From: Azospira oryzae
GTDB taxonomy: Bacteria > Pseudomonadota > Gammaproteobacteria > Burkholderiales > Rhodocyclaceae
Assembly (NCBI RefSeq): GCF_004217225.1
Contig: NZ_SHKM01000003.1
Location: 186,001-250,000, forward strand
Direction: 5' to 3'
Length of the DNA: 64,000 bases
The position numbers and the translations under genes are program-made. Below the pieces are notes generated by a model. It was not told the origin of the DNA. It searched no databases and saw nothing but the letters and a program-made list of their open reading frames with translations. This document shows positions 57,687-60,729 of the stretch, piece after piece (positions within the stretch are counted from its first letter, which is position 1; each line of letters starts with the position of its first letter).

Positions 57687-58715
57687 ATGGCTATCAAGGT
57701 TGCCATCAACGGTTTCGGTCGTATCGGTCGCTGCACCCTGCGGGCGATCTACGAGCAGGGTCTGCAGAATGAGTTCGACGTGGTTGCCATCAACGCCTCC
57801 GGCGACCTGGCCACCAACGCCCACCTGCTGAAGTACGACACCACCCACGGCCGCTTCGGCACCTCCGTGGAGACCGAGGGCGAGAACTGCATCATCATCG
57901 ATGGCAAGAAGATCCCCTTCTACTCCACCAAGAACCCCAAGGACATCGACTGGTCCAAGCACGGCGTGGAAGTGCTGCTGGAATGCACCGGCGCCTACAC
58001 CACCAAGGAAAAGGCCCAGGCCCTGCTGCAGCAGGGTGCCAAGCGGGTGCTGATCTCCGCCCCCGGCGGCGACGACGTGGACACCACCATCGTCATGGGT
58101 GTTAACGAAGGCGTGCTCAAGGCCGACATGACCGTGGTCTCCAACGCCTCCTGCACCACCAACTGCCTGGCCCCCGTGGCCAAGGTGCTAGCCGAGAGCG
58201 TCGGCATCAAGCAGGCCCTGATGACCACCGTGCACGCCTACACCAACGACCAAGTAACCGTGGACGTGCGCCACAAGGACCTGCGCCGCGCCCGTGCCGC
58301 CGCCGCCAACATCATCCCCACCAAGACCGGCGCCGCCAAGGCCGTCGGCCTGGTGCTGCCCCAGCTGGCCGGCAAGTTCGACGGCTTCTCCCTGCGCGTG
58401 CCCACCATCAATGTCTCCCTGGTGGACCTGACCTTCACCGCCGAGCGCGCCACCACCAAGGAAGAAATCAACGAGCTGATGACCGCCGCTGCCAAGGGCC
58501 CCCTGAAGGGCATCATGGCGGTGAACAACGAGCCCCTGGTTTCCTCCGACTTCAACCACACCACCGTCTCCTCCACCTTCGATGCCACCCAGACCCGGGT
58601 CATCAAGGGTGCCGACGGCTCCGTGCTGGTGAAGGTGCTGGCCTGGTACGACAACGAGTGGGGCTACTCCTGCCGCATGCTGGACGCCGCCCGCGCCTGG
58701 ATGGCCGCCAAGTAA
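57687..58715 (+). CDS. gap: Glyceraldehyde-3-phosphate dehydrogenase
   Basis: Interconverts glyceraldehyde-3-phosphate and 1,3-bisphosphoglycerate. The 342-residue protein has the Rossmann start INGFGRIGR, catalytic SNASCTTNC (Cys156) and His183. The cofactor loop reads VVAINASGD (32-40): the Asp that confers NAD preference in glycolytic GAPDH is Ala, as in the NADP-preferring gluconeogenic GapB type, so a reductive, Calvin/gluconeogenic role is inferred. GAGGAGAGAAG precedes the ATG. A very strong terminator follows. Confidence 0.96.
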
Positions 58716-58732
58716 GCAACACCGCCGACGGC

Positions 58733-58773
58733 AAAAAGCCGCCTGGGAGCATCTGCTCCCAGGCGGCTTTTTT
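58733..58773 (+). terminator. Strong bidirectional terminator after gap
   Basis: An 18-bp perfect stem (58733-58750 with 58755-58772) with loop ATCT, ending in a T-run. It serves gap and, on the other strand, the convergent unknown gene. Confidence 0.95.
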
Positions 58774-58866
58774 ATTGCTGCAGCGACTATCGGGACCAGG
58801 GGGTGAAAGGCAGCGCGGCAGGCCCAACCATGGGTGGCCCGACGGCACCGCCCTCGCCGCCCAGGC

Positions 58867-59436
58867 TCAGGAAGAACTGCCCGACTTGCCGTTCACGGCC
58901 GCCTGCAGCAAGGCGTAGGCGGCAATGCCGGCAGGAGACTGGCCATTGCCCAGACCATCGCCCTGGCCGCCGGCGGCCGCACCGTCCTGGCTCTGGCTGA
59001 GCCTGGCCATGGTGGCATCCTGCAGGGTGGTGGCATCGGGATGGGCCTCATCCTTGGCTAGCAGGCGCTCCCGCATCTTGCGGGCGATATCCGACTCGAT
59101 CGCCTCCCGCTTTTCCGGCGGCAGAGCGGCCAGGTCTTCCTCGCTCATGCCCATTTCCTTGAGGATGGCGTCACGCATGTGCTCGGCCGGACTCTTGTCC
59201 AGGTATTCCTGCAGCTGGGCCCGCAATTCCTCGCGGCGGGCCTGGGCAGCGGCATCGGCCTTGTCCTCGGCCGTTTCCACCCGGCTGGAAGTGTTGGCGC
59301 CGGCTGACGGATTGGCACCTTCCGTCAGGCCGGCTTGAGGCGATGCCTGCAATGCGGCCGCTTCGGCCTCCTGGCCGCGCTTTTTCGCCGTCAGGCTCTG
59401 TAGGCTGAGTTGGTTATAGAGGGAATCGATACGCAT
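58867..59436 (-). CDS. Unknown Ala/Glu-rich protein with a sigma-54-type promoter
   Basis: 189 residues, no signal peptide or membrane helix. N-terminal MRIDSLYNQLSLQSLTAKKR, then an Ala/Ser/Thr-rich low-complexity stretch, then a charged helical core, DKSPAEHMRDAILKEMGMSE (about 95-114), followed by EDLAALPPEKREAIESDIAR, and a Gly/Ala-rich tail ending GKSGSSS. GGAG at 59446-59449 fits the ATG at 59436; in-frame ATGs at 59442 and 59451 are alternatives. The core resembles an uncharacterised proteobacterial family; I give no function. It is inserted between gap and epd on the opposite strand, so it is unlikely to belong to the carbon operon. Confidence 0.8.
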   Translation of the reverse strand: MRIDSLYNQLSLQSLTAKKRGQEAEAAALQASPQAGLTEGANPSAGANTSSRVETAEDKADAAAQARREELRAQLQEYLDKSPAEHMRDAILKEMGMSEEDLAALPPEKREAIESDIARKMRERLLAKDEAHPDATTLQDATMARLSQSQDGAAAGGQGDGLGNGQSPAGIAAYALLQAAVNGKSGSSS

Positions 59437-59472
59437 GGTCATACGCTCCATAGGTGCTATGGCCACCCTTAA

Positions 59473-59488
59473 TGCAAACGGCGTACCA
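59473..59488 (-). promoter_or_regulatory. Sigma-54 (RpoN) -24/-12 promoter
   Basis: TGGTACGCCGTTTGCA on the minus strand fits the consensus TGGYACR-N4-TTGCW at every defined base, with the GG and GC twelve bases apart. The start point would be near 59462, 26 bases before the ATG at 59436. An upstream activator site is not identified. Confidence 0.7.
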
Positions 59489-59566
59489 GAATGTAAATTC
59501 CCTTTGAGAACAAAGGACTTTGCCGACCTGGTGAATATTTGCCGCCTGCCCGGGGCAAAAAAATGA

Positions 59567-59600
59567 CGGCAAGGTTGGCCGCCAGCGGCCATCCTTGCCG
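59567..59600. repeat. Long hairpin in the divergent spacer
   Basis: CGGCAAGGTTGGCCGC pairs with GCGGCCATCCTTGCCG over 16 bp with one mismatch and a 2-base loop. It lies upstream of both epd and the sigma-54-linked gene. Candidate operator or RNA element. Confidence 0.5.
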
Positions 59601-59643
59601 GGCAAAACCCTGTCCGCCTCTCGGATTTAGGGCCGCAACCCTG

Positions 59644-59649
59644 TAAAAT
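59644..59649 (+). promoter_or_regulatory. Putative epd-pgk -10 element
   Basis: TAAAAT in CTGTAAAATCACGG, 34 bases before the epd GTG. It is enclosed by a short GGCCG/CGGCC repeat. Confidence 0.45.
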
Positions 59650-59682
59650 CACGGCCTTCATCCATTTCCTCCCTGGCCCCCC

Positions 59683-60729
59683 GTGTCCGGCTCCCTCCCC
59701 CCCCTTCGTCTCGCCATCAACGGCTACGGCCGCATTGGTCGCTGCTTTCTGCGGGCCCTGCATGAACGGGGACTGGCGGAGCGTTTCCAGGTGGTGGCCA
59801 TCAACGAGCCGGCCAACAGCGAGAGCATCGCCTACCTGACCCGCTTCGACTCCACCCACGGCCGCTTCCCCGCCCCGGTGGAACTGCAGGACGGCACTCT
59901 GGTCATCGACGGCCGCAGCATCCAGCTGACCCACGCCGACACCCCCGAGGGAGTGGACTGGCGCAGCCTGAAGGTGGATCTGCTGGTGGAATGCTCCGGC
60001 CAGTACAGCAACCGGGCCGGCCTGCGCCGCTTCCTCGAGGCCGGCTGCCCCCGGGTGCTGCTGTCCCACCCGGCCAACAGCGCCGCCGACGTGGATGCGA
60101 CGGTGGTCTACGGCCTCAACCACGGCCGCCTCAACGGCGACGAGCGCATCGTCTCCAACGCCTCCTGCACCACCAACGCGGTGGTGCCGGTGCTGGAGCT
60201 GCTGGACCGGGAGCTGGGCCTGGAACAGGTGCTGCTGACCACCCTGCATTCGGTGATGAACGACCAGCCCCTGGTGGACGGCTACCACCACAGCGACCTG
60301 CGCCGCACCCGCTCCGCCATGCAGTCCATGATCCCGGTCTCCACCGGCCTGGCCCGGGGCGTGGAGCGCCTGCTGCCGGGCCTCAAGGGCAAGGTGCTGG
60401 CCAAGGCCATCCGGGTGCCCACCCTCAACGTCTCGGCCATCGACCTCACCGTGACCCTGGCCCAGGATGCAGACGTGGCGGGCCTCAACGCCCTGCTGCA
60501 AATCGCTTCCAACGGCCCCTGGAAGGGCGTGCTGACCACCTCCGCCGCCCCCCACGCCTCCATCGACTTCAACCACGACCCCCATTCCGCCATCGTGGAC
60601 CTGAGCCAGACCCGGGCCGGCGGCGCCCGCCTGTTCAACCTCTTCATCTGGTTCGACAACGAATGGGGCTTCGTCAATCGCATGGTGGACGTGGCCCAGC
60701 GCTGGCATGCCGGCTGGTCCCAGTCCTGA
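59683..60729 (+). CDS. epd: Erythrose-4-phosphate dehydrogenase
   Basis: Oxidises erythrose-4-phosphate to 4-phosphoerythronate, the first step toward pyridoxal phosphate. The 348-residue GAPDH relative differs from the gap gene in the Epd-type cofactor loop [22 protein letters not shown] in place of the GAPDH sequence, [11 protein letters not shown] (catalytic Cys162), TLHSVMNDQ and [15 protein letters not shown]. The start is a GTG; no ATG fits. It is immediately upstream of pgk (55 bases), as in E. coli epd-pgk. PdxA of the same pathway is at 22064. Confidence 0.88.

Follow-up and report, generated by a model that had tools for sequence, protein, structure and literature searches.

We propose that a solitary gene of Azospira oryzae, which encodes a protein of 189 residues and is set between two genes of central carbon metabolism, belongs to the flagellar σ54 regulon through a FleR-type activator; we put the probability of this reading at about 80%. 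The gene lies on the minus strand at 58867–59436 of the 64-kb stretch of DNA analyzed here (the window). It is preceded by a –24/–12 promoter at 59473–59488 and, further upstream, by a pair of near-palindromes resembling CGGCAA-N3-TTGCCG. Flagellum genes carry matching DNA signals, and the orphan gene is therefore a probable accessory member of the flagellar program that has been overlooked. An earlier note on this DNA had assigned it, as probable, to a regulon different from that of its central-carbon neighbors, a view that stands; the note named no regulon, and the present evidence points to the flagellar one. A single promoter match is thereby turned into a testable claim, namely that a promoter and a probable activator site travelling with the gene place an orphan family in the flagellar program.

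The reading frame comprises 189 codons plus stop, with a G+C content of 0.70/0.50/0.78 at the three codon positions, and is flanked by two plus-strand frames, a gap-type glyceraldehyde-3-phosphate dehydrogenase (57687–58715) and an epd-type dehydrogenase (59683–60729), both named by eye as well as in the earlier note. The promoter sequence TGGTACGCCGTTTGCA (minus strand, 59488 to 59473) agrees exactly with TGGYACR-N4-TTGCW, including the GG-N10-GC core. This 16-base pattern was taken from the earlier note, whose promoter was confirmed in sequence, strand and position. If GC is taken as –13/–12, transcription is predicted to start near 59462, leaving a 26-nt leader to the ATG at 59436, again in agreement with the note, as is the likely ribosome-binding site GGAG at 59446–59449, 9 nt ahead of this start codon. 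An alternative in-frame ATG at 59442 is possible; the start at 59436 is favored because the starts chosen for the orthologues have M-K/R-I/V in 19 of 27 cases. A σ70 promoter scan of positions 58650–59750 gave no match.

Throughout the window, the exact σ54 pattern occurs once, counting both strands, compared with a mean of 0.05 in shuffled sequences. With up to two mismatches, 26 matches were found where 22.5 are expected, so only the exact match is distinctive in the window. The A. oryzae genome, which encodes RpoN (PF04552, at C2:656953), contains seven exact matches and none to the pattern read backwards. Besides TGGTACGCCGTTTGCA and one site within a reading frame, they are located before genes for flagellin, FliK, a nifB-like protein, a nitrate-transporter-like protein and a small glycine-rich protein (flagellin and FliK identified by Pfam, the others by eye).

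We searched for the same site before orthologues, as the earlier note had suggested. Of 297 Rhodocyclaceae genomes, 28 contain the gene according to a core profile built from 25 sequences; they represent 15 of 68 genera. When the 500 nt preceding the core are searched with one mismatch allowed, 25 of these 28 loci carry the site, 10 of them exactly; control windows from the same loci gave 10 and 0 of 1248, respectively, and the antisense reading of the same upstream regions showed a site at the one-mismatch limit in 2 of 28. The limits on mismatches, the lengths of the regions and the palindrome itself were set after the first loci had been viewed. Because 11 of the 28 loci had already been seen, some as near-identical copies of loci in the first set, the other 17 were counted separately: 15 keep the site within the one-mismatch limit, four of them exactly. 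Grouped by genus, at least one member has such a one-mismatch site in 14 of 15 genera, and all members do in 12 of 15. Loss of the GG/GC elements in relatives keeping the gene was also looked for. At up to two mismatches, 27 of the 28 Rhodocyclaceae loci retain the GG-N10-GC site; the remaining one, L118, contains a GG-N10-GC sequence with three mismatches that was spotted by eye afterwards. In the nearest relative, Azospira sp. I13 (L016), GG and GC are kept, with two mismatches. The distance between the site and the chosen start is 31–38 nt in 26 of 27 Rhodocyclaceae loci, the chosen start being the last ATG within 26–44 nt of the site, which biases towards narrow spacing. At two loci (L007 and L008) the σ54 site is kept without gap or epd frames seen alongside.

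Conservation extends beyond the family. From a set of 30 loci, nine that belong to Rhodocyclaceae or lie close to this family were excluded, leaving 21 from Pseudomonas, Thalassolituus, Gallionellaceae, Sulfuricella, Novimethylophilus, Alphaproteobacteria and others. With two mismatches allowed, 17 of these carry the site no further than 150 nt from the start, and eight do with one allowed, close relatives such as the six Pseudomonas being counted singly; the corresponding control values are 41 and 3 of 3924 windows. A functionless chance match to the consensus could be argued from the shuffled windows, 5 of 100 of which contained at least one exact match. Such an origin does not account for a site that 25 of 28 loci hold at a constant distance, compared with 10 of 1248 control windows, nor for its retention at 15 of 17 unseen and 17 of 21 distant loci, and we regard it as extremely improbable. 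The earlier note had likewise judged so complete a match unlikely by chance. The element at 59473–59488 is almost certainly a real σ54 promoter, from which we infer RpoN-dependent transcription of the 189-codon gene. Of 28 genomes with the gene that were searched for rpoN, 27 contain it; the search of the one other genome (that of L037) yielded no match, which counts against the flagellar reading.

Upstream of the promoter lie the only two sequences of the window that match the palindrome CGGCAA-N3-TTGCCG with at most one mismatch, CGGCAAGGTTGGCCG at 59567–59581 and CGGCCATCCTTGCCG at 59586–59600, each with a single mismatch; both are probable activator sites. Among the 27 Rhodocyclaceae loci with a σ54 site, the 150 nt upstream contain the palindrome with at most two mismatches in 23 and at most one in 17 cases, compared with 31 and 7 of 1353 control windows. 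When half-site gaps of 0 to 10 were compared, a gap of 3 was found in 23 of 27 loci, followed by gaps of 9 and 10 with eight each. The 17 unseen loci gave 13 and 12 palindromes at the two limits, and 12 of the 15 gene-bearing Rhodocyclaceae genera possess one. Its absence at up to two mismatches from 4 of the 27 loci counts against the flagellar reading, as does its absence from most of the alphaproteobacterial and Thalassolituus loci. In the 21 distant loci, half-sites occur with a gap of 4 in 10 (including all six Pseudomonas), a gap of 3 in four and a gap of 7 in five, these being raw counts without window control, taken within 350 nt and at two mismatches.

In the window itself, the two palindromes also make up a single long inverted repeat with a T run behind it, which scores as terminator-like, a further point against the flagellar reading. 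The palindromes could accordingly be arms of an intrinsic terminator shielding the gene from epd-side transcription instead of activator sites: a minus-strand hairpin with T run at 59584–59564 overlaps a palindrome, and seven such sites were found compared with 1.1 in shuffled sequences. However, many orthologues carry only a single 15-base palindrome, and the same palindrome is located within fliK and other flagellar reading frames, where terminators are not expected. We therefore consider a terminator quite unlikely and keep to probable activator sites.

The distribution of the palindrome over the A. oryzae genome links it to flagellar genes, which were named by eye save those with Pfam support. 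With at most one mismatch, it occurs eight times in the flagellar/chemotaxis cluster (C3, 19–76 kb), three times in the flagellin stretch of C4 and twice in the 64-kb window. Exact copies of CGGCAANNNTTGCCG number seven, with those at C3:28423, 44665, 54342 and 70919 and at C4:20564 in flagellar/chemotaxis stretches and those at C1:43158 and C2:517702 outside them. The flgB promoter bears both signals, TGGCACGAAAAGTGCA and CGGCAAAAGTTGCCG. Three observations in this genome count against the flagellar reading: the looser palindrome pattern, CGGCARNNNYTGCCG, is found genome-wide in 20 places, whereas its reversed control is found in 10; near the flhB palindrome there is no σ54 site at up to two mismatches; and a repeat-rich gene at C3:1–19 kb contains four one-mismatch palindromes, copies of one sequence, so that the density there exceeds that of the flagellar cluster. 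Highly repetitive frames with ALTTAQIAALTT-type repeats are located at contig ends adjoining flagellar genes (C3:3–4769 and C4:25744–28155); they repeat CGGCAACCGCTGCCG and are possibly one split gene.

Three further genomes were searched for the palindrome with N3 or N4, counted per strand. Dechloromonas denitrificans (genome of L020) contains 50 compared with 18 for the reversed control, Uliginosibacterium sp. 31-16 (L034) 29 compared with 4, and Pseudomonas sp. PDM16 (L024) 35 compared with 12. Both Dechloromonas and Uliginosibacterium have the palindrome within fliK and before flgB. It is also found within flgJ, upstream of flgK, in the former, and before flgK, flhB and flagellin as well as within fleR, upstream of fliE, in the latter. 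As the regions from these two organisms were mostly picked from matches, this demonstrates recurrence at like places and not a rate. Some palindrome matches, such as those of L146 and L154, lie away from flagellar genes.

A candidate for the protein binding these sites is encoded in the A. oryzae genome. A FleR-like regulator contains Response_reg and Sigma54_activat domains, the scanned fragment ending before the DNA-binding part, and next to it lies a kinase (by eye); both adjoin fliE/fliF. This arrangement resembles the systems of FleR/FlrC in Pseudomonas and Vibrio and of FlbD in Caulobacter, the last of which acts on ftr elements. Flagellar promoters in these systems likewise combine a –24/–12 site with an upstream or intragenic activator site, whereas our orphan gene sits outside the flagellar clusters. 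FlrC, FleR and FlbD are described in the part of PMC7064773 consulted as acting at rod and hook genes. A limited literature search for a binding consensus of FleR, FlrC or FlbD, or for a flagellar σ54 regulon of Rhodocyclaceae, yielded nothing direct to which the palindrome could be matched.

All 27 gene-bearing genomes tested encode flagellin domains, compared with 200 of 369 in a class-wide sample, a comparison that ignores kinship; the test covered the genomes of 27 of the 30 loci, with L016, L017 and L019 left out. Among 121 relatives, all eight gene-bearing genomes encode flagellin compared with 100 overall, which proves little alone and again ignores kinship. The σ54 promoter could instead be real and respond to another activator such as NtrC, PilR or a stress regulator, putting the gene under nitrogen, pilus or stress control. 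Two of the seven exact sites of the genome do precede nifB-like and nitrate-transporter-like genes (by eye), and that FleR binds the palindrome is something we infer. But the palindrome conserved together with the promoter is found again at flagellar genes of three genera (Azospira, Dechloromonas and Uliginosibacterium), and flagellin accompanies the gene in every genome tested, which makes control by another activator unlikely. According to the flagellar reading, a FleS-type kinase would control an activator of the FleR/FlrC/FlbD type, which would bind the CGGCAA-N3-TTGCCG palindromes 79–112 bases upstream of the promoter and drive RNA polymerase with σ54 at 59473–59488. The promoter would then serve the orphan gene within the rod-hook-filament class of the flagellar regulon, and the 189-residue protein would be produced during flagellum construction. 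For Rhodocyclaceae, the palindrome itself suggests a specific sequence to which FleR-type activators may bind, and with it a means of finding further orphan flagellar genes.

The family is sparse: in the class-wide sample the core profile matches its own genome only (1 of 369 at E 1e-5). An order sample gave 10 of 399 at E 1e-3, from which we set aside the four weakest, those with E 1.9e-5 and above. Only eight of the 121 relatives carry the gene; many flagellated relatives thus lack it, which counts against the flagellar reading and shows that the gene is dispensable for the basic flagellum. The neighborhoods of the orthologues vary, with no flagellar cluster beside them by eye. We tentatively suggest, with some doubt, that this family, for which neither Pfam nor NCBIfam has a model, is part of the flagellar σ54 regulon across Alpha-, Beta- and Gammaproteobacteria. 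In each setting the solitary gene would bring along its own promoter and, in Beta- and Gammaproteobacteria, often the activator site as well. If true, the gene would form, with other palindrome-bearing orphans, a set of flagellum-timed and possibly flagellum-exported accessory proteins that were overlooked because they are located outside flagellar clusters.

In agreement with the earlier description of the product as a protein of unknown family, searches of Pfam, NCBIfam and PDB sequences yielded no family above cut-off. AlphaFold2 predicts helices at residues 56–80, 83–94, 99–104 and 107–131, with mean pLDDT values of 78–91 for ten-residue blocks over 61–130, low confidence for residues 1–55 and a weak C-terminal part. 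The whole model has a mean pLDDT of 65 and a pTM of 0.34, the latter rendering the helix packing unreliable. Helices and conserved columns together define a core of residues 56–131 (59044–59271, minus strand), and R88, L92, G96 and E99 are invariant across 31 sequences. Our guess is a mostly disordered N-terminal part followed by this helical core. A Foldseek search of the model against the PDB returned eight matches, the best with E 4.2, and no notable fold. Two sequence matches were dismissed. A designed protein in the PDB (E 0.00034 over 23 residues) was taken as chance. The C-terminal domain of CSTF-64 (PF14304) matches weakly over the LPPEKR helix (E 0.002; 2j8p, E 0.11), its 18.2 bits being below the Pfam cut-off of 24.3 bits, and probably reflects a fortuitous resemblance between short helices.

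Within the flagellar reading, the product may either be exported or remain in the cytoplasm as an adaptor or chaperone. The charged helical core of the AlphaFold2 model and the lack of any family or fold match indicating export fit an adaptor or chaperone, to which we give slightly less than even odds. The layout of the protein, in which a short conserved start precedes a long and variable linker, argues against it, as do FlgM-like frames of three genomes (by eye), which start V/M-K-I-D/E like many family members, although this is a resemblance only. FlgM, the anti-σ28 factor exported through the flagellum, is likewise a small protein; in contrast to FlgM, the helical core here matches no Pfam family above cut-off, FlgM's included. 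An exported accessory protein is a possibility we hold with less confidence, flagellar export being suggested by the N-terminal likeness. Accessory proteins of the kind proposed here exist in Campylobacter jejuni as the Fed proteins, flagellar co-expressed determinants exported by the flagellum. They are likened by description only, as export is putative in our case, and unlike the promoter described here they are σ28-dependent.

Two other palindrome-associated genes were observed. An EF-hand protein gene is shared by Azospira (L058, C1:43158) and Uliginosibacterium (L153, C2:864689), with 51% identity over 152 residues. At both loci an exact CGGCAA-N3-TTGCCG lies about 330–350 nt before the gene start, and the Azospira gene has no σ54 site with at most two mismatches nearby. 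The second gene, L089 (C2:341328), encodes a 282-residue protein without Pfam match; it is preceded by TGGCATGACTTCTGCA (two mismatches), with CGGCAGACTTTGCCG located between this sequence and the gene start.
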